Below, piece after piece: positions 56,531 through 64,000 of a stretch of DNA of 64,000 nt. This DNA is from Pleomorphomonas carboxyditropha. Lineage in GTDB: Bacteria; Pseudomonadota; Alphaproteobacteria; Rhizobiales; Pleomorphomonadaceae. The stretch spans positions 124,001 to 188,000 of the forward strand of contig NZ_NQVN01000006.1 in NCBI RefSeq assembly GCF_002770725.1. The letters run 5' to 3'. The notes under the pieces are model-generated. The model had not been told where the DNA came from, did not search any database, and saw only the letters and a program-made list of their open reading frames with translations. How positions within the stretch are numbered: the stretch's first letter is position 1; each line of letters opens with the position of its first letter. Both the position numbers and the translations under genes were made by a program.

Positions 56531-58273
56531 TCAGCGCAGAACGCGCAGTTCCTCCTTGAGATTTTCGATATCCGGGATGACGAAGGTGCGCGGCGACGGC
56601 CGCTGGACATCGCCCGTCCGGATCAGCTCGGCCAACACCGTCGACACCGACTGGCGCGCCGCGCCGATGGCCATGGCGAGGTCGTCGCCATGCGGCGCGG
56701 CGTCGATGACGACTCCGGTCGAGGTTTGGCGACCGTCGTGCTCGGCCATCTCGCAGAGATAGCGGATCAATCGATAGCGCACGCTGCGGAAGGCCATCTC
56801 GCCGACCATGGTGAGCGACCGGTTCAGCATCTTCTCGACCGCCGGCAGAATGCACATGCCGAACTCGGGATGGTCGCGGGTTAGCCGCCGGAACGCCGCG
56901 CGCGGGATCACGGCCGCCTCGCCTTCCTTGCGCACCTCGACCACCATCTCCGGCTGAAGCGGCACGGCGTCGCCGGGCCCGAGGGTGAACAGCGTCAGCT
57001 CCTTGCCCTCGTGCGAAGCGAAGCAGCGGTAGCGGCCCGACGCGACCACGAGGATGGCCTCGCCGGTGTCGTCCATCAGGTTGGCGCCGTAAACGAGATG
57101 GCCGACTTTCATCTTGCGCAGCTTCGGGCCGCCCTCGATTTGCAGGGTCTCGAGCACGACATGCGGCAGCGCGTCGCCGCCGGCCGGCTCGGCGAGCACC
57201 GGCCGCGCCGGTTGCCGCTCGATCGCCCGCCCCGGCTCCGTGCCGCCTTGCACCTTGCGGGGCATCTGCAGGCGGGCGAAGAAGGTCGAGCCGTGGGCGG
57301 ACTGCACCACGCATTCGTCGGCCGACGCCTGCCGCGTGACGCTGGCGTGCTGCACCGAGAACAACTGCCGGAAATGCATGACGCCGATTGCCGACCAGCT
57401 GAGGCCGATCAGCTCCACGGCCATGCGGTTGGCACCGACCAGACGGTCGTTGTCGAAGGCCAGCAAGCCCTCGTTGGGGCCGCCGAGCAGGCGGGGATTG
57501 GAATGCAGGTGCATCTGCTCGAAGCGTCCATACCGCCGCTCGAACAGGCGTCGTTCGATTTCGTTGGCCGCCCGCTTCAACAGCGGCAGCGAATAGTCGT
57601 GGGCGACCGTCACCGACGTCGAAAGATCGATGATGCCGGCCAGCGCGCCGCACGGATCGATGATCGGCACCGCCGAGCAACTGATGTCGGTGTTGCCGTT
57701 GCAGAAATGCTCGGCTCCGATCACCGACAGGGCGAAGCGTTCGGACAGGGCCGTGCCGATGGCATTGGTGCCCATCGCCTGTTCCGACCAGTCGCCGCCG
57801 GCGCACAGGCCGAGCCGCTCCGCTTCGTCGCTGAAGGTGTTGTCGCCGAGGCGAACCAGCACCACGCCGTTGGGGTCGGTCAGCACCACGACGCCGCCTA
57901 GCGGCTGCGTTTCGCGGCAGAGCGTGACGATCTCGCCCCAGGCGGAAACCAGCAGCTCCTCGTTGCGCTCCCGCAACTCCTTGAGGGCGGTTTCCGTCAG
58001 CCGCGTCTCGCGCCGTCGCGACGCACCGTTGGCAAGGCCATGCAGGCTGCTGCGCTCCCAGGAGCGCAGGATCGGCAGCGGCACGCCCTCGGGCAGGATG
58101 CCGTCGGCCATGAACTTCGAACGCACGGCCAGCAACCGTCCCTGATCGGGAAGGGGGCCGGGGCGCGCGCTGCGCTCATGTCGTCCGGACATGCTTCGGC
58201 AAGTGCCGCAGGCGGCCGGCCCGCCCGTCGGAATGGCGCATGTATCGGCTTCAAGCCGTTGAGGCAGGACCAT
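56531..58273 (-). CDS. Hybrid regulator: AcoR-like GAF sensor with Crp/Fnr output domain
   Basis: A 580-residue regulator with an unusual domain order. Residues 58-220 resemble the N-terminus of AcoR-type activators (LPILRSWERSSLHG, about 66-79; GAF with GDWSEQAMGTNAIGTALSER and ISCSAVPIIDPCG). A PAS-like segment follows at about 245-340. Where AcoR has a sigma-54 AAA+ domain, this protein has a cyclic-nucleotide-binding-like jellyroll (about 395-480) and a Crp-type helix-turn-helix (GAARQSVSTVLAELIRTGDV, near 540). The N-terminus holds Cys12, Cys22 and Cys25. The start at 58273 is fixed by GGAGG eight bases upstream. It sits between the radical SAM cassette and moaA and is the likely local regulator. 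Confidence 0.85.
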   Translation of the reverse strand: MVLPQRLEADTCAIPTGGPAACGTCRSMSGRHERSARPGPLPDQGRLLAVRSKFMADGILPEGVPLPILRSWERSSLHGLANGASRRRETRLTETALKELRERNEELLVSAWGEIVTLCRETQPLGGVVVLTDPNGVVLVRLGDNTFSDEAERLGLCAGGDWSEQAMGTNAIGTALSERFALSVIGAEHFCNGNTDISCSAVPIIDPCGALAGIIDLSTSVTVAHDYSLPLLKRAANEIERRLFERRYGRFEQMHLHSNPRLLGGPNEGLLAFDNDRLVGANRMAVELIGLSWSAIGVMHFRQLFSVQHASVTRQASADECVVQSAHGSTFFARLQMPRKVQGGTEPGRAIERQPARPVLAEPAGGDALPHVVLETLQIEGGPKLRKMKVGHLVYGANLMDDTGEAILVVASGRYRCFASHEGKELTLFTLGPGDAVPLQPEMVVEVRKEGEAAVIPRAAFRRLTRDHPEFGMCILPAVEKMLNRSLTMVGEMAFRSVRYRLIRYLCEMAEHDGRQTSTGVVIDAAPHGDDLAMAIGAARQSVSTVLAELIRTGDVQRPSPRTFVIPDIENLKEELRVLR

Positions 58274-58434
58274 TTCAGCACCCTCCAGGTGCATCCACCG
58301 CTGAAGTTTCAAAGACATGCTTCGCGGTTTTACGGGCGAAGCCATCCCGGACAAGCCACCCGGCGGCGAGGCCGAACTTCAGCTAAAGGTGGGCTTTCCT
58401 GTCATGGATTCGATCATATGCCCTGCCGAACTAA

Positions 58435-58506: not shown

Positions 58507-59817
58507 TTAATCCTCCCCGCAGACCACCGTCACCCTGCGCTTGCGGCAGAGGGAAAACGGCGGGCCGGAAACCCGTTCGACGGCCAGGTCAATTCCCGCC
58601 GCTTGCAGCCACGGACCGACAATCGGGTGGCGAAGCAGCGCCGCCCGAACATCGACGATCGTGCGTGGGGCGGCCGCCATGACGCCGACGGCAAGGCGGG
58701 CGCCTCGGCCGGTTCTCAGCTCGACCGAGAAGTCGATCACGCCATCGACCGCGAAGATCGCGTCGTCGATGATCGCCGCCGGCAGGCGCCCTCCCCCTCC
58801 GGCGACGATCGGCTCGCCGATCCGCCCGCCGAGGCGCAACCGGCGGAGTACCGAGCCGCAGCGGCACCGATCGTCGATGACGCAGCCGCGGTCGCCGGTG
58901 CGATAGCGGATGAGAGGCAGGCCGCGGCGGCGCAAGGTGGTGACGACGATCTCGCCCTCCTGGCCGGCCGGCAGCGCCCGCCCGCTGCTCCCGTCGACGA
59001 CTTCGAGATACAGATCGGTTTCCCGGACATGCAGGCCGTCGTGCGCCTCGCAGGCGAGCGCGCCGCCATAGCCGGTCTCGGTCATGCCCCAGTGTTCGAA
59101 CGCTTCGGCGCCCCAGACGACGGCGAGCGCCGCCTTGAAGCTTGGCGAGACGCTGTCGGCGCTGACCAGCGCCGTCTCGATCCTGAGCGGCGGTCCGCCA
59201 TCGGCCTCCATGCGCCGGGCGGCGGCGCCAAGCGTCACCGGCATGCCGGCGATCGCCGCCGGCCGCAGTTCGCGCAAGGCGTCGACCATCCTATCCAGCG
59301 AGCCGGCGACGGGCAGCGCCACCGGAAAGGCGCCGAGACGGGTCAATCCGCGCATCAGGAGATCGCCGACACTGTCCGGCCGCTGGGCGGGAAAGGCCAC
59401 CGCCACCGAGCTGCCCGGACGCACGATGGTCGCCATGCCGTGCTCGAAATAGGCGACGGTCGCCTCGATGTCGGCTTCGGTGAAGAACAGGCGCTTCTGC
59501 CGGCCCAAGGTGCCCGACGTCGGGATGGTCACCAGTCGCACCGCGTCGCGCATCGGCAAGGCGATGAGCGACGGATCGCCGCGCACGAGGTCGTCGGCCG
59601 TCGTCAGCGGCAGTCGCGCGAGGTCGCGGAGATCGACAAGTTCGCAGGGTTCCGGCCAGCCGGTTCGCAGCCGATAGAAAGGGCTTTGGGAGCGCGCATA
59701 GGCGATCGTCTCGTTCAGGCAGCGAAGCTGATAGGCGTCGATGTCGTCGCGGGTCGGCAGGCGTGCGACGCCGATCGTCCGCCCCACCCAGGCATCGAGC
59801 GTTCCGGACCCGTTCAT
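58507..59817 (-). CDS. PaaK-like AMP-dependent ligase (DVU_1553-type)
   Basis: A 436-residue member of the adenylate-forming superfamily, nearest to phenylacetate-CoA ligases. Visible are RLPLTTADDLVR, the P-loop TIPTSGTLGRQKRLFFTEAD (about 95-114), EHWGMTETGYGGALAC, the hinge LPLIRYRTGDRG and a Cys pair after it (RCRCGS, about 345). It should activate a carboxylate as acyl-AMP, perhaps passing it to CoA. The substrate is unknown. The start overlaps the radical SAM stop by 4 bp. I recall this family as a fixed member of the TrsS cassette. Confidence 0.85.
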   Translation of the reverse strand: MNGSGTLDAWVGRTIGVARLPTRDDIDAYQLRCLNETIAYARSQSPFYRLRTGWPEPCELVDLRDLARLPLTTADDLVRGDPSLIALPMRDAVRLVTIPTSGTLGRQKRLFFTEADIEATVAYFEHGMATIVRPGSSVAVAFPAQRPDSVGDLLMRGLTRLGAFPVALPVAGSLDRMVDALRELRPAAIAGMPVTLGAAARRMEADGGPPLRIETALVSADSVSPSFKAALAVVWGAEAFEHWGMTETGYGGALACEAHDGLHVRETDLYLEVVDGSSGRALPAGQEGEIVVTTLRRRGLPLIRYRTGDRGCVIDDRCRCGSVLRRLRLGGRIGEPIVAGGGGRLPAAIIDDAIFAVDGVIDFSVELRTGRGARLAVGVMAAAPRTIVDVRAALLRHPIVGPWLQAAGIDLAVERVSGPPFSLCRKRRVTVVCGED

Positions 59818-61208
59818 GCCGACGGCTCGCGGTAAAGCGACCGTCCCCCGAGGTCGGTCAGGTTGTAGGCGCAGAACGGAATGACGCGACCGTCCGGCTT
59901 CGCCACGTGGATATGGCATTGGCGCAGGCGATCGAGGTCGAGCGTCCAGGCATCCTGGAAGGCCATGCCGGACAGCGACAGGCGCCGGCTCTGCCGCTCC
60001 AGAAAAGCGTCGAAGGCTTCGAGACCGGCGGCCGGGGTTTCCGCCTGCGGCATCGTCGTCCACTGTCCAGCAACATAGCGCTGGGCGCGCACCACCTCCG
60101 GCGAACGCCACGCCACGGCGCCGCAGCATTCCGTTCCGCTCGGCCCCTCTTCGCTGCCGGAACCGCAACAGCCGGCCGCCGGCTCCGGATCGGAGCGCAA
60201 ACCACCGGAGCGATCGACGGCGAAGCGGCCACTGAACGAGCAGAAGGGATTTTCCGCCGAACCGGGGCGGAAGTCCTCGAGCCCGATGGCGCCGCCGCCA
60301 TATTCGATCAGCGCCTGCATCACCTCCGGCAGGGTTATGCGGTCCTCGTCCCGCGGAGCGCCGGGATGCCGCCCGAAATAGGACACCGGCTGGAAATGCA
60401 CCGCCCGCACCGTCGGCATCTCGTCCCTGGCGAAATCGACGATGGCGCCGATCTCGCCCGTATTGACGCCGGGAACCAGCGTCGGCACCAGCACGACGCC
60501 GACACCGGCGGCCCGCGCGCCGGCGATGGCGAGGCGCTTCTCCGCAAGAAGGTTCCGGCCGCGCAGCTTTCGATAGACGGCATCGCTGACGCCATCGAAC
60601 TGCAGGAAGACGCAGTCGAGCCCGGCGTCGACGAGCGCGGCGAGATAGTCGGGCTCGCGGCCGATCCTGAGGCCGTTGGTGTTGATCTGGACGAAATCGA
60701 AGCCCTTGGCCCGCACCAGCGCGACGATCTCCGGCAAATCGTCGCGGACGGTCGGCTCGCCGCCCGACAACTGGATATGCACCTGGCCGCTGCCCGCCCT
60801 CAGCCTGTCGAGGGCGACAGCGATTTCGTCGATCGGCATGTCCGTGCCATGCCGGCCGGCCGAGGCGAAGCAAACCGGGCAGACGAGGTCGCAACGCGAC
60901 GTCACCTCGACCAGCACGCAGCAGCCTTGCTGGCGATGGTCGGCGCAGAGCCCGCAATCCCTCGGGCAGCCCTCGGCGATATCGGTGGCGACGCTGAACG
61001 GCCGCGACGTGGCGCGACGGCTGCGGGACCACATCTCGTAGCTGCGAAGGCCGCGCCAGATCGGCGTCACGACGCGGCCGTGCGCCGGGCAGGTCTTGTC
61101 GAGATAAACCGTGTCGCCGACCGCGAAGCGCTCGGCCGGAATGGTCCCGAGGCATTCGGGGCAGACGCTGCGGGTGCGTCCGAGGGACAGGCGGACGGGG
61201 CCGGTCAT
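59814..61208 (-). CDS. Multi-cysteine radical SAM protein, TrsS-like
   Basis: A 464-residue radical SAM enzyme. The SAM cluster motif is CX3CX2C at Cys106, Cys110, Cys113 (TSRCDLVCPVCFASAG), with the SAM-binding QLSGGEPTVRDDLPE at 146-160. Extra cysteines: Cys16, Cys19, Cys40 with His43 (zinc-ribbon-like N-terminus), Cys81, Cys85, Cys88, Cys96, Cys97 just before the cluster, and a C-terminal group Cys323, Cys347-348, Cys361-362. The N-terminal half resembles MJ0619/tetraether-synthase-type enzymes. Auxiliary Fe-S clusters are likely. In some bacteria the counterpart is, as I recall, a selenoprotein; here the frame uses Cys and has no in-frame TGA. The substrate is unknown. It ends in a 4-bp overlap with the ligase gene. 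Confidence 0.87.
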   Translation of the reverse strand: MTGPVRLSLGRTRSVCPECLGTIPAERFAVGDTVYLDKTCPAHGRVVTPIWRGLRSYEMWSRSRRATSRPFSVATDIAEGCPRDCGLCADHRQQGCCVLVEVTSRCDLVCPVCFASAGRHGTDMPIDEIAVALDRLRAGSGQVHIQLSGGEPTVRDDLPEIVALVRAKGFDFVQINTNGLRIGREPDYLAALVDAGLDCVFLQFDGVSDAVYRKLRGRNLLAEKRLAIAGARAAGVGVVLVPTLVPGVNTGEIGAIVDFARDEMPTVRAVHFQPVSYFGRHPGAPRDEDRITLPEVMQALIEYGGGAIGLEDFRPGSAENPFCSFSGRFAVDRSGGLRSDPEPAAGCCGSGSEEGPSGTECCGAVAWRSPEVVRAQRYVAGQWTTMPQAETPAAGLEAFDAFLERQSRRLSLSGMAFQDAWTLDLDRLRQCHIHVAKPDGRVIPFCAYNLTDLGGRSLYREPSA

Positions 61209-61210
61209 CG

Positions 61211-62371
61211 TCAGTCCCCCACCGGTGCTACGGGACTGCCGGCGGCCGGCATGTGGCCGAGCGGTCCGATCACCGCCTCGACGGCGGCGAGCACGGCGGC
61301 GACGGCGGCCCGGCGGCGCAACGCCCCGGCCAGGGCGGCGGGATTGCCGGCAAATGCCGTCAAGGCCGGCGCGAAGCGCTCTTCAAGGCCGACGCGCCGT
61401 TCGCCCCTGATCAGCTTGTCGGCAAGAAACACCAGGTGGCGTTCGTCGATCGGCTGTCCCGGCTCGAACGCCATCTCCATGTGGGCGGCGACGATTTCGG
61501 CAGCATCGGCAAAGCCGAACCCGGCGACATGCCGGGCGCCCGCCGCCGCGTGGTCGGGCTCGCCCTTGGCGATGTCGTGAAGCAGCGCGCCGGCCCTGAT
61601 GGCATCGACATCGATCGGCACCCCGTTGGCGACCAGCCGGCCGGCGATCTCGACGGCCAGCCGCGCCACGGCGGCGCAATGGCGGCGGGTCGGCTCCGGC
61701 GTGCCGGCGGCCTCCAGCATCGCCTCGCATTCCGCCAGGTCGGGGTGGCGGCGGTGCGGCAGCGATGCGGCAAGGCGGCGGTAGTCCTCGGAATAGTCCA
61801 TGTCGCGCAACACGCCGCTGTCGATGACCGGGACGGATCGAGCGTCCTGCCGGTGCTGTCCGATAATGTCGCGCAGCGTCGCCTCGGGCGGCGCGGCGAG
61901 GATTTCGGCAAACAGGCGCCGGTGAATGAATGGCGGATGTCCGCACCGACCGCGAAAGGTCGGGCGGAGAACGGCCGCTTCCCCGTCCCCGGCGCTTGCG
62001 GCGATCCGGGCCAGGGTGGCGGCCCTGACGAGCGGCACGTCAACCGGCAGGATCATCGCTCCGCCGACCCTGTCGGGCAACGCGGCGATGCCGGCCTTGA
62101 CGCTCGACATCATGCCGTCGGCGAAGGCGGCATTGACCACCGCCACCGCGCCGCGGGCCTCGACGGCCGGCACCATGCGCGCCGCCTCGTTGCCGACGAC
62201 GACGTAGGTCTCCCCGATGGCGGCCTCGGCGATGGTCGACATCACGTGCCCGAGCACGGTGTCGTCGCCAAACGGCAGCAGCGGCTTGAACGCGCCCATG
62301 CGCGACGACCAGCCGGCCGCCAGCACCACGACGGCCATGTTCGGCGGCAGGGACTCGATCGGGTCGTTCAC
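61211..62371 (-). CDS. MobA/MocA-like nucleotidyltransferase fused to an HD domain (DVU_1551-type)
   Basis: A 386-residue two-domain protein. Residues 12-200 are an NTP transferase of the MobA/MocA type (VVLAAGWSSRMGAFKPLLPF with the LAAGxSxRMG signature; ILPVDVPLVR; CGHPPFIHRRLF), the fold that attaches CMP or GMP to molybdopterin. Residues 225-340 are an HD phosphohydrolase-like domain (THE HD pair in GALLHDIAKGEPDHAAAG, then IVAAHMEMAF). The start is GTG at 62371 with GGAGGAGAAG upstream, overlapping the C-GCAxxG-C-C stop (GTGA). The pairing suggests both making and removing a nucleotide-linked cofactor form; unproven. Confidence 0.86.
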   Translation of the reverse strand: MNDPIESLPPNMAVVVLAAGWSSRMGAFKPLLPFGDDTVLGHVMSTIAEAAIGETYVVVGNEAARMVPAVEARGAVAVVNAAFADGMMSSVKAGIAALPDRVGGAMILPVDVPLVRAATLARIAASAGDGEAAVLRPTFRGRCGHPPFIHRRLFAEILAAPPEATLRDIIGQHRQDARSVPVIDSGVLRDMDYSEDYRRLAASLPHRRHPDLAECEAMLEAAGTPEPTRRHCAAVARLAVEIAGRLVANGVPIDVDAIRAGALLHDIAKGEPDHAAAGARHVAGFGFADAAEIVAAHMEMAFEPGQPIDERHLVFLADKLIRGERRVGLEERFAPALTAFAGNPAALAGALRRRAAVAAVLAAVEAVIGPLGHMPAAGSPVAPVGD

Positions 62372-62823
62372 GGCTTCTCCTCCGGCGGCACCGCCGCAAT
62401 ATCGACGCCGTGATCGGCGAGCGTTTCCCTGATCTTGTCCCAGGCGGCGATGATCAGCGCCGGACAGCGTTGCCGTTTCAGCGTCTCGTCGAACTTCATG
62501 ATCTCCGCGCAGTCGATGCCGCCATATTGGCCGGTGGCGGCGGCGTTGAACCAGCCGGCGAAATCGTCGAGCATGGCCCCCAGTTCGGGATGCTCGCGCT
62601 CGCCGTCGCCGCCCCGTCCGGCGTAATAGCCGATGACGCAACAGCCGGCCGACAGCGCGCCGCAATTGAAGCCCTGCCCCATGCCCAGGGCCAGGCCCGA
62701 CATGGCCCGGACCAGGCCGGGATCGTCGCGCCCCTGCGCCTCGAGGGCAAGCCGCATCAGGATGTGGCTGCACTTGAAGTCGTCGAGCAGCAATTCGGCG
62801 ACGCGGAAGGACTCCTCGCTCAT
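62368..62823 (-). CDS. C-GCAxxG-C-C family protein (DVU_1555-type)
   Basis: A 151-residue protein with the family's spaced cysteines: Cys18, Cys54, Cys61, Cys62, Cys105 and Cys120, including GFNCGALSAGCCVIGYYAGR (51-70), a variant of the GCAxxG motif. The family (C_GCAxxG_C_C) is thought to bind metal or undergo redox chemistry and often sits beside redox or membrane proteins. No signal peptide. It overlaps both neighbours by 4 bp, so stoichiometric expression in the cassette is likely. Confidence 0.87.
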   Translation of the reverse strand: MSEESFRVAELLLDDFKCSHILMRLALEAQGRDDPGLVRAMSGLALGMGQGFNCGALSAGCCVIGYYAGRGGDGEREHPELGAMLDDFAGWFNAAATGQYGGIDCAEIMKFDETLKRQRCPALIIAAWDKIRETLADHGVDIAAVPPEEKP

Positions 62824-63494
62824 GGGTTCGCCCTCCCTGTCGGTGGCGCCGGTTCGGCGGATCGCGACGCAACGAACAGCCGATAGCGCGGCCGGCCGGC
62901 CACTTGTGCGGCGCGGTCGCCCCACAACGCGTCGAGCGAACCGTAACGGAAGATGAAGCGCGCGACAAAGCCGGCGAACACGTCCGACCTGTCTTCGTCG
63001 TGGAGAATGACGAAACCGGCGGCCACGATGTCCTCGCGGAGATCGTCCCGCCCGTCGCGGCCCGGCCAGTCGACGTCGGCGAGCAGCAAGCGTCCATCCG
63101 GCCTCAGCACCCGGGCCCACTCGGCGAGCGCCGCGCGGCGATCCGGCATCAGCGACAGGCTGCATTCGGAGAGCACGGCGTCGAAGCCGGCATCGGCGAA
63201 CGGCAGGCGGACGCCGTCGCCATGGAACAGCGCCGAGACGGCGCGCGAAGCGGCGATCGCCAACGCTCTCTCGTCGAGATCGATGCCGATGCCGACAAAG
63301 CCGTGCCTTTCAAGCCAGACGAGGCTGTCGCCGGCGCCGCAGCCGACATCGAGCACCGAGGCGCCGAGGGGCAGGCCCGACCGCGCGAACAGCTCCCTGA
63401 CGATCGCCCCGTCGCCGGGCCGCAGCCACTTACCGTCGGCGCCCTCGACGCAACCGCAGCCGAACAGACCCGGGAGGACGGAGGATTTCGCCAT
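62820..63494 (-). CDS. SAM-dependent methyltransferase (DVU_1556-type)
   Basis: A 224-residue class I methyltransferase. A Cys pair near the N-terminus (PGLFGCGCVEGADGKWLRPG, about 8-27) precedes motif I VLDVGCGAGDSLVWLERHG, the acidic loop IGIDLDERALA and motif IV/post-IV (VLSECSLSLMPDRRAALAEW, RPDGRLLLADVDWPG). Fold typical of UbiE/Methyltransf_11 enzymes. The start ATG overlaps the preceding stop (TGATG). The substrate is unknown; being in the cassette, it probably acts on the same product as the radical SAM enzyme. Confidence 0.87.
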   Translation of the reverse strand: MAKSSVLPGLFGCGCVEGADGKWLRPGDGAIVRELFARSGLPLGASVLDVGCGAGDSLVWLERHGFVGIGIDLDERALAIAASRAVSALFHGDGVRLPFADAGFDAVLSECSLSLMPDRRAALAEWARVLRPDGRLLLADVDWPGRDGRDDLREDIVAAGFVILHDEDRSDVFAGFVARFIFRYGSLDALWGDRAAQVAGRPRYRLFVASRSAEPAPPTGRANP

Positions 63495-63706
63495 CACTTG
63501 TCCTCCAGCGCCTGCTCGACCTTGAGCATGCGGCCGTAGGCGAGATCCTCGGAGACATAGACGAAGCCGCAAGACGGACAGCAAGGCAGCTCGACCGGGA
63601 AGGTCTGGCCGAGGTAGCTCGCCTCGACCTTGCGCATTTCCAGCGGCTTGTCGCAGCGGGCACAGATCAAATCGGGGACCGGGATGCCACCGGAAACGCC
63701 GGTCAT
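63494..63706 (-). CDS. Small zinc-ribbon-like Cys-rich protein (DVU_1557-type)
   Basis: A 70-residue protein with two cysteine pairs, LICARCDKPLEMRKVEASYL (Cys15, Cys18) and ELPCCPSCGFVYVSEDLA (Cys42, Cys43, Cys46), typical of a rubredoxin/zinc-ribbon knuckle. A redox or metal-relay role is plausible. The stop overlaps the methyltransferase start by one base, and the start overlaps the upstream gene's stop (ATGA). Confidence 0.85.
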   Translation of the reverse strand: MTGVSGGIPVPDLICARCDKPLEMRKVEASYLGQTFPVELPCCPSCGFVYVSEDLAYGRMLKVEQALEDK

Positions 63707-63972
63707 GGCTTCACCTCGACCTGCATGCGGTGGCCGTAGGCGCGATGAACGACAAAGCCGGCGTCGGTCGGCTGGTATTCGACCCAGGTGGTAACCGTGC
63801 CGATGCGGCCGGAGGCGGTGAGATGGCCGCTCGCCCGGTCCTTCAGCGCGCGTCCGGTGCGCTCAGCCTCGGCGATCACCTCGGCGATATCGTCGATGAG
63901 CAGCAGCTTGCGCTCGATGTCGGCCCGGACGGCGTCGGTCATGACGAGTGGGATGGGAACGGGATCGCTCAT
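63703..63972 (-). CDS. Small conserved cassette protein of unknown function
   Basis: An 89-residue protein without cysteine, signal peptide or membrane segment. It begins MSDPVPIPLVMTDAVRADIE, continues with a helical, acidic segment (LLLIDDIAEVIAEAERTGRA, 24-43) and ends in beta-like TVTTWVEYQPTDAGFVVHRA. No family was recognised. Overlaps at both ends (ATGA with the gene cut by the window edge and with the Cys-rich gene) place it firmly in the operon. Confidence 0.78.
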   Translation of the reverse strand: MSDPVPIPLVMTDAVRADIERKLLLIDDIAEVIAEAERTGRALKDRASGHLTASGRIGTVTTWVEYQPTDAGFVVHRAYGHRMQVEVKP

Positions 63973-64000
63973 GCTTTCTCCCCAGAGGTCGCGCAGCAGG
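63969..64000 (-). CDS. 3' end of a further upstream cassette gene (partial)
   Basis: On the minus strand the last visible codons read CCATSGEKA then TGA, with the stop overlapping the ATG of the 89-residue protein gene (ATGA). This matches the overlap pattern of the whole cassette, so another gene almost certainly continues beyond the window. Nothing can be said of its product from nine residues, except that it ends with a Cys-Cys pair close to the C-terminus. Confidence 0.4.
   Translation of the reverse strand, partial: CCATSGEKA

Follow-up and report, generated by a model that had tools for sequence, protein, structure and literature searches.

What is made by a tightly packed set of genes that encodes a radical S-adenosylmethionine (SAM) enzyme, a ligase and a methyltransferase, and which protein would use the product? 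The question is raised by the right-hand end of a 64,000-nucleotide stretch of the Pleomorphomonas carboxyditropha genome (contig NZ_NQVN01000006.1, positions 124,001 to 188,000), which is called the window here. The genes concerned lie at 58507-63706 on the minus strand and belong to the DVU_1551-DVU_1557 set of Desulfovibrio, in which the radical SAM enzyme is named TrsS. When they are read together with the adjoining DNA and with related loci in other genomes, they form the downstream part of an aldehyde oxidoreductase (AOR) gene run of the Desulfovibrio gigas (Mop) type, which is composed of two separable modules. One is a molybdenum (Mo) module comprising AOR, an XdhC-like protein and a MocA-like/HD protein. 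The other, the TrsS core, comprises TrsS, the DVU_1553 ligase, the DVU_1556 methyltransferase, the 1557 zinc ribbon and the 1558 protein, or at least its small C-terminal domain. We tentatively lean towards the view that the TrsS core makes a small cofactor for a 1558/1557 electron relay, which would serve AOR in this genome and other electron donors elsewhere.

The cassette and its continuation on the contig

Family membership was judged by scores against curated NCBIfam cut-offs, and domains were assigned by Pfam. The cassette consists of six complete genes and the tail of a seventh (aa, amino acids; AMP, adenosine monophosphate):

58507..59817, minus strand: PaaK-like AMP-dependent ligase, DVU_1553 family, 436 aa (NF045666, 383 bits, cut-off 300)
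59814..61208, minus strand: TrsS, radical SAM protein related to tetraether lipid synthase, 464 aa (NF045646, 582 bits, cut-off 490)
61211..62371, minus strand: MocA-like nucleotidyltransferase fused to an HD domain, DVU_1551 family (NF045665, 405 bits, cut-off 315; NTP_transf_3 and HD)
62368..62823, minus strand: C-GCAxxG-C-C protein, DVU_1555 family, 151 aa from ATG 62823 (NF045669, 152 bits, cut-off 103; PF09719)
62820..63497, minus strand: SAM-dependent methyltransferase, DVU_1556 family (NF045667, 169 bits, cut-off 155)
63494..63706, minus strand: zinc-ribbon/redox protein, DVU_1557 family (DUF7479), 70 aa (NF045645, 99.5 bits, cut-off 60; PF24292)
63703..64000, on to 66099 on the contig, minus strand: C-terminal part of a DVU_1558-type flavin/4Fe-4S/CCG protein (NF045663, 968 bits, cut-off 530)

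As each of the six complete genes exceeds its curated cut-off in the DVU_1551-1557/TrsS set, chance matches are not an issue. The preliminary description of the window, which had recognized the ligase, the radical SAM enzyme, the MocA-like/HD fusion, the C-GCAxxG-C-C protein, the methyltransferase and the five-cysteine zinc-ribbon protein and had placed them in this set, is thus borne out. The radical SAM protein contains 19 cysteines, where at least 16 had been noted, and the 70-aa protein contains five. Overlaps of 1-4 base pairs (bp) had been described at nearly all junctions, and this holds for five of the six, each with 4 bp in common (for methyltransferase/1557 this holds if the methyltransferase starts at GTG 63497, and a start at ATG 63494 would leave 1 bp); the TrsS/MocA-HD junction is a 2-bp gap. 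GTG 62371 is a possible start of the MocA-like/HD gene. Its protein is called MocA-like only, because it passes the cut-off of its own family and scores 132 bits against the Mo-cofactor cytidylyltransferase MocA (TIGR03310), below the cut-off of 186. The DVU_1553-family ligase is of the acyl-adenylate type and may transfer its product to coenzyme A (CoA). The gene set is already known by name in NCBIfam and is uncharacterized; the split into two modules, the D. gigas argument and the proposal of 1558 as a partner come from the present analysis, for which no priority is claimed.

A separate 89-residue gene and an eighth gene cut by the edge had also been described, and these turn out to be one and the same. 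On the longer contig, where the window numbering is continued past 64000, a single minus-strand frame runs unbroken from 63703 to 66099 and encodes the DVU_1558-type protein of 798 aa. It is followed by the Mo hydroxylase of the aldehyde oxidoreductase type that had been expected to the right, and then by an XdhC-like gene:

66140-68905, minus strand: AOR, 921 aa (NF045668, 1540 bits, cut-off 1100)
68947-69795, minus strand: XdhC-like gene (NF045664, XdhC AOR maturation factor, 269 bits, below the cut-off of 350; PF13478 and PF02625 matched)

The name XdhC-like reflects the missed NF045664 cut-off alongside the two Pfam domains. AOR combines 2Fe-2S and Mo-binding domains in one chain (Fer2, Fer2_2, Ald_Xan_dh_C, MoCoBD_1 and MoCoBD_2) and shares 60% identity with each of the two Desulfovibrio enzymes of known structure, 1SIJ and 1DGJ. 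Glu869, which we take to be the catalytic residue of the active site, is invariant with the D. gigas and D. desulfuricans enzymes. Among the matches listed, its nearest relatives are from Pleomorphomonas and are 90-94% identical.

The 1558 protein contains Fer4_20, a dicluster domain, two CCG motifs and a single nucleotide-binding motif of the form GxGxxG; that it carries a flavin is an assumption based on homology. The two CCG motifs are unchanged in 64 of 64 full-length forms and in five of five short forms. Tandem intact CCG motifs are shared with the HdrB/TfrB-type Fe-S proteins, and the centers of 1558 presumably resemble those of the heterodisulfide reductase HdrB. Among the curated families TfrB ranks next for the short form, whereas for the full-length form pyridine-nucleotide oxidoreductases rank before it. 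In 1558, unlike in HdrB/TfrB, a flavin/4Fe-4S part and a small C-terminal domain are attached to the CCG part. The C-terminal domain (63703-63972, 89 aa) is modeled by AlphaFold as helix-helix-three strands, with a predicted local distance difference test score (pLDDT) of 93. A search of the model against the PDB gave no match at E 0.001 or better; the best were the RelE/HigB2/ParE toxins at E 0.023, which is not significant. DUF4258 is matched weakly by 11 of 64 members of the domain (best E 0.0012), the one in the window not being among them. Together with the neighboring zinc-ribbon 1557, the modeled domain recalls a domesticated toxin-antitoxin-like pair. An internal translation start at the in-frame ATG 63972 is possible, because this codon is preceded by a ribosome-site-like GGGGAG and because the domain is a frame of its own in cassettes of other genomes that lack AOR.

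AOR loci and TrsS cassettes in other genomes

Related loci were chosen by an alignment scan for AOR alone, so that TrsS had no part in the choice, and the best 80 of at least 550 confirmed relatives were examined with locally built profiles. Many of the 80 are cut by contig ends, and 56 have at least 9 kb downstream. The usual order in many loci, with losses and moves, is AOR-1558-1557-1556-1555-(XdhC)-1551-TrsS-1553. Over all 80, 1558 is present in 73, 1557 in 67, TrsS in 58 and the ligase in 53. The 56 well-covered loci contain 1558 in 55 cases, 1557 in 55, TrsS and the C-GCAxxG protein in 51 each, the methyltransferase in 48, the ligase in 47, MocA-HD in 44 and XdhC in 37, and 42 of them contain all five core genes. 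The 1558 protein, encoded beside AOR in nearly every well-covered locus, is thus a concrete candidate for a flavin/Fe-S partner.

TrsS is missing from 22 of the 80 loci. Twelve of their genomes were searched whole and TrsS was found over the cut-off elsewhere in all 12, which together with four controls makes 16 of 16 AOR genomes; nine of the 22 loci were left out of this check, with L069 counted apart, which is from Sporomusa silvacetica like L074, a locus that has TrsS. In the family of G479, AOR is found in 134 of 199 genomes, and in 19 of the 20 loci fetched TrsS is matched together with cassette genes, the match being broken up in L175 and L176; in L179, AOR stands by itself in 19.5 kb.

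Two other phyla were used to measure co-occurrence, because only one of 299 Pseudomonadota genomes, the window's own, has TrsS over the cut-off. Sample 1 is the phylum of G311 (the genome of L106, Desulfobacteraceae; 247 genomes) and sample 2 that of G312 (the genome of L062, Fusibacter ferrireducens; 219 genomes). TrsS exceeds the cut-off in 25 genomes of sample 1 and AOR is matched in 20 (one under the cut-off), 19 having both (Fisher p 3e-22); AOR without TrsS is seen in G555, where the AOR copies are cut, and TrsS without AOR in six genomes. In sample 2 TrsS is found in 13 genomes, AOR over the cut-off in 15 and both in 12 (p 3e-16), and the exceptions include G632 and G643, with TrsS at 469 and 332 bits, and G636, where AOR is cut and below the cut-off. 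A Tes-like radical SAM enzyme is thus usual in genomes with this AOR: it is present in 16 of the 16 that were searched whole, and in 19 of 20 and 12 of 15 in the two samples. Three further genomes (G607, G617, G681) have AOR-like matches of 672-758 bits, far below the cut-off, and no TrsS match at 1e-100.

The co-occurrence in other genomes is close for TrsS and the ligase. In sample 1 the ligase also exceeds its cut-off in 25 genomes; the two are nearly one to one, with both in 24 of the 26 genomes that have either, one each single and 221 with neither. Both mismatches fall below the cut-off in the other family (G533, ligase 289 versus 300; G353, TrsS 433 versus 490, in two pieces). MocA-HD seems to track AOR and TrsS more loosely: it is present in 18 genomes, 13 of which also have AOR, and appears to be used more widely, since five have neither AOR nor TrsS. 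These five, G319, G354, G403, G448 and G475, have NF045665 matches over the cut-off.

The six genomes of sample 1 with TrsS and no AOR match, together with G353, form the TrsS-only set, and the TrsS regions of all seven were fetched. TrsS and the methyltransferase are present in all seven, as is the C-terminal domain of 1558, six times as a separate profile match and in L142 within a read-through match. The 1557 protein is found in four by profile and in the other three by eye, the ligase at the locus in six (in G389 it is on another contig), the 4Fe-4S/CCG half of 1558 in five and the C-GCAxxG protein in two. The AOR, MocA-HD and XdhC profiles have no match in the seven regions. A genome-wide search for Mo hydroxylases (PF02738) gave no match in five of the seven genomes, whose completeness is not stated, and G439 and G466 match PF02738 with no AOR match. 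What AOR and TrsS-only cassettes have in common is therefore TrsS, the ligase, the methyltransferase, 1557, the 1558 C-terminal domain and mostly a CCG protein, and no Mo enzyme. Because the relay parts, and not the Mo enzyme, are shared, the product is assigned to the 1558/1557 relay, so that a redox cofactor, and not molybdopterin, becomes the thing to look for. A tree of TrsS places the six TrsS-only rows that could be used in a single clade (99/95) and separates them from the remaining 68 TrsS rows (97/95). Tes-like rows fall outside, and a long-branch warning concerns these rows.

What the TrsS core may make

Tetraether lipid synthase (Tes; also GDGT-MAS, MJ0619, structures 7TOL/7TOM) is described as an enzyme with a rubredoxin motif (C9-X2-C12-X20-C33-X2-H36), an N-terminal cluster (C73/C77/C80 plus a His), a radical SAM motif (CX3CX2C) and a C-terminal cluster where Met439 is labile; a carbon-sulfur intermediate arises by way of the sulfide of that cluster (PMC9433317). 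Tes (NF045702) is the best match of TrsS after its own family, at 343 bits, which does not reach the cut-off of 450. Likewise, the predicted model of TrsS (mean pLDDT 86.5) has 7TOM/7TOL as its best Foldseek match (E 5e-41), with MoaA next (1e-10). The same motifs are found in TrsS, as C16-X2-C19-X20-C40-X2-H43 (rubredoxin), C81-X3-C85-X2-C88-X2-H91 (N-terminal cluster) and C106-X3-C110-X2-C113 (radical SAM), and Met415 stands at the place of Met439, as counted in the alignment. Across 46 TrsS rows the motif residues, Met415, C323, C431 and C446 do not vary, apart from Cys81, which is almost constant. In a set of 86 rows that includes seven TrsS-only rows, the three cysteines occur in every row reaching their columns (83, 76 and 75) and Met415 in 74 of 77. 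Our guess is that the three cysteines are ligands of a C-terminal cluster in TrsS. Unlike Tes, to which it is only 30% identical in the Foldseek alignment, TrsS has an extra invariant Cys96, and 59 residues instead of 88 lie between the two matched parts, before the C-terminal cluster. This stretch is partly unordered in the model and, as it is shorter, a pocket for two lipids in TrsS is doubted.

Taken together, these data suggest the following sequence of events. AOR would oxidize an aldehyde at its Mo site, which holds the cytidine-dinucleotide cofactor (Mo-MCD), and pass the electrons through its 2Fe-2S centers to 1558, which could be the flavin partner that AOR lacks. The remaining steps are put forward with less assurance: the ligase may adenylate a carboxylic acid, the methyltransferase may then methylate it, and TrsS, with its Tes-like metal centers, may use a cluster sulfide to form a bond at an unactivated carbon. 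The product might be a small cofactor or prosthetic group for the 1558/1557 relay, not for the Mo cofactor, and in genomes lacking AOR the same core could serve other electron donors. A more specific version, by analogy with coenzymes M and B in methanogens, is that the core makes a new bacterial thiol/disulfide redox coenzyme. Here, TrsS would supply sulfur from its auxiliary [4Fe-4S] cluster, or form a carbon bond through it, at an unactivated carbon of an acid activated by the ligase and decorated by the methyltransferase, and the HdrB/TfrB-like CCG centers of 1558 would cycle the coenzyme as acceptor for AOR and other donors. This version is a long shot; if true, it would matter for sulfate reducers and many Bacillota.

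The alternatives differ in what TrsS would act on. That the core matures the Mo enzyme, through a group on the Mo cofactor or on the AOR protein or through a transient need at assembly or insertion, is rather unlikely, even though it would suit the strong TrsS-AOR co-occurrence in both phylum samples, the MocA-HD and XdhC-like genes in the same run and the single TrsS that accompanies two AOR genes in G311 and in G402. Maturation of a Mo enzyme or its cofactor had been proposed for the cassette as a whole. This survives for the MocA-like/HD and XdhC-like proteins, which fit maturation of a cytidine-dinucleotide Mo cofactor; for the TrsS core, which occurs without AOR, it is not supported. Nor is there support for the further proposal that an organic group for the Mo enzyme or cofactor is built by the ligase, the methyltransferase and the radical SAM enzyme: seven genomes have the core and no AOR match, five of them with no PF02738 match. 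The strongest argument against such a group on the Mo cofactor comes from D. gigas itself, for which genome G793 is taken because its AOR agrees with the solved D. gigas chain at all 901 residues given (100% identity). G793 carries the cassette, and the D. gigas AOR structures are described as having an ordinary MCD site, with an oxo ligand in place of the sulfido and no FAD (flavin adenine dinucleotide) (PMC3877041, PMC10223205). A retained extra group should show in these structures, so modification of the Mo cofactor is unlikely; a transient role in assembly is possible.

A metabolic pathway is unlikely; in it, AOR would make an acid for activation by the DVU_1553 ligase, and TrsS and the methyltransferase would build or alter that same metabolite. 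The acyl-adenylate type of the ligase would fit, as would L141 and L143, where the cassette lies beside proteins of a kind that handles acyl-CoA. Against it, AOR and the TrsS core are separable, and the neighbor clusters that could be named in the 80 AOR loci encode regulators, class V aminotransferases, molybdopterin-binding proteins, histidine phosphatases and hydrogenase-type subunits; further clusters, including ABC ATPases, were examined in one member or none. It is quite unlikely that TrsS and its helpers turn a relay protein, 1557 or the 1558 C-terminal domain, into a protein-derived cofactor. Both small units accompany TrsS in AOR and TrsS-only cassettes, 1557 has near-invariant Cys, Tyr, Glu and C-terminal Lys residues, and it is present twice in G300, G301 and G304, beside AOR-1558 and beside the methyltransferase-TrsS part. 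However, the residues of 1557 kept in both cassette classes are four Cys, two Glu and one Lys, TrsS is closer to a lipid enzyme than to peptide maturases, and a PaaK-type ligase is, as a matter of general knowledge, unusual in such systems. Coupling or crosslinking of membrane lipids by TrsS, with AOR linked through fatty-aldehyde metabolism, is very improbable: Tes is the nearest solved structure and the nearest family after TrsS's own, but TrsS stays under the Tes cut-off, the stretch between the matched parts is short and partly unordered, and the gene company in the loci consists of redox genes.

Several points also weigh against a relay cofactor as the product. This reading is inferred from shared gene company, and the strong linkage of TrsS to AOR (p 3e-22 and 3e-16) would also suit a direct role in AOR. 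Met415 tells little about the chemistry of TrsS, since the Tes variant M439A keeps activity, and Val435 of TrsS aligns with Tyr459, which is completely conserved in archaeal Tes (PMC9433317). The CCG half of 1558 was not found in two of the seven TrsS-only loci; L144 has another CCG/4Fe-4S protein instead, and L148 has none by that profile in 12 kb. In L141 this half is on the opposite strand. To these are added the unstated completeness of the genomes without a PF02738 match, and the search at 1e-30 in genomes with AOR matches, which gave no TrsS in G555, in G633, where AOR is a cut copy below the cut-off, or in G767, which has three AOR copies. Finally, flavodoxin is named as the putative partner of D. 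gigas AOR and is said to take part in its electron transfer in vitro (PMC10223205).

Two other ideas were dropped. Methylation of a pterin by TrsS was prompted by a Pfam zinc ribbon named HMPTM; it was abandoned because the D. gigas AOR has ordinary MCD and because the authors of the Tes paper could not corroborate the pterin-methylase findings and hold the annotation of MJ0619 to be incorrect (PMC9433317). TrsS is listed as a selenoprotein family in PMC13188914, where Haft & Tolstoy 2025 is cited for TrsS. A check for TGA read-through in 85 TrsS matches found no internal TGA (one at an end), and in the other cassette families the same check gave none taken for selenocysteine.

Related systems and neighboring genes

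The D. gigas locus of G793 reads molybdopterin-binding protein-AOR-nitroreductase-1558-1557-1556-1555-TrsS-1553-XdhC. Its AOR (Mop; 1SIJ/1VLB), which was a structural model for xanthine oxidase until 2000 (PMC10223205), lies beside the cassette, as the Pleomorphomonas AOR does. Two differences are that AOR and 1558 are separated by a gene of the nitroreductase family and that the 19.9 kb fetched gave no match to MocA-HD. The D. vulgaris set DVU1551-1559, the basis for comparison with NF045645, NF045646 and NF045663-NF045669, shares with this contig the six genes and 1558 over their cut-offs and the AOR neighbor, DVU1559 being called an aldehyde oxidoreductase (PMC11784015). The contig differs in its XdhC-like gene, which is below the family cut-off and upstream of AOR; in 18 of the 20 loci fetched from the family of G479, this gene is found on the far side of the ligase gene. 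Fitness data for D. vulgaris are reported in PMC10102598, in whose main text words beginning DVU155 are absent, and a literature search on six locus names between DVU1551 and DVU1559 found only DVU1558 or DVU1559 named.

The selenium-dependent Mo hydroxylase set EF2563-EF2571 comprises MobA-related, XdhC, aldehyde-oxidoreductase-like and class V aminotransferase genes (PMC2432076). A class V aminotransferase cluster also occurs in 15 of the 80 AOR loci; the one member tested, from L080, scores 285 bits against the EF2568-family cut-off of 377, and a similar gene of L147 scores 459. The AOR beside the cassette does not reach the cut-off for selenium-dependent xanthine dehydrogenase (TIGR03311, 431 bits versus 830).

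Other partners are suggested by some loci. The TrsS-only cassettes at L141:6847-10666 and L143:100-3887 lie beside 2-hydroxyacyl-CoA dehydratase/double-cubane-type proteins and an activase, and such proteins are a possible other partner of the TrsS core. At L147:7462-8292 a DUF5714/MbdU-like protein adjoins TrsS in a locus with no C-GCAxxG-C-C match; a weak PF09719 match suggests that it could replace the C-GCAxxG-C-C protein. A large subunit of the membrane hydrogenase/Complex I type (Complex1_49kDa and NiFeSe_Hases, two members checked) is encoded near AOR in nine loci (L042:7523-8740 and L068:7449-8588, similar in L043, L045, L046, L049, L051, L052 and L117), which suggests that electrons from AOR may end in H2. 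The three AOR matches of G767, of 1135-1174 bits, possibly represent a TrsS-independent AOR branch. Tes-like radical SAM genes about 30-33% identical to TrsS are present in Pseudomonadota genomes (L009-L016). A scan of viral contigs for TrsS gave 10 pattern matches, with no relative among them, and a plasmid search gave 234 records, every one below 60% identity.

Further genes flank the cassette and AOR on the contig:

56531..58354, minus strand: GAF and Crp-type helix-turn-helix regulator adjoining the cassette (domain matches; regulatory role predicted)
70135-72467, minus strand, right of the window: flavodiiron-like protein and ArsM-like methyltransferase, upstream of XdhC-AOR

Regulator frames form one cluster in 30 of the 80 AOR loci, and the two members examined are GAF-PAS-sigma-54 activators. 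The flavodiiron gene is found in five of the 80 loci (L038-L041 and L044), all from Pleomorphomonas.

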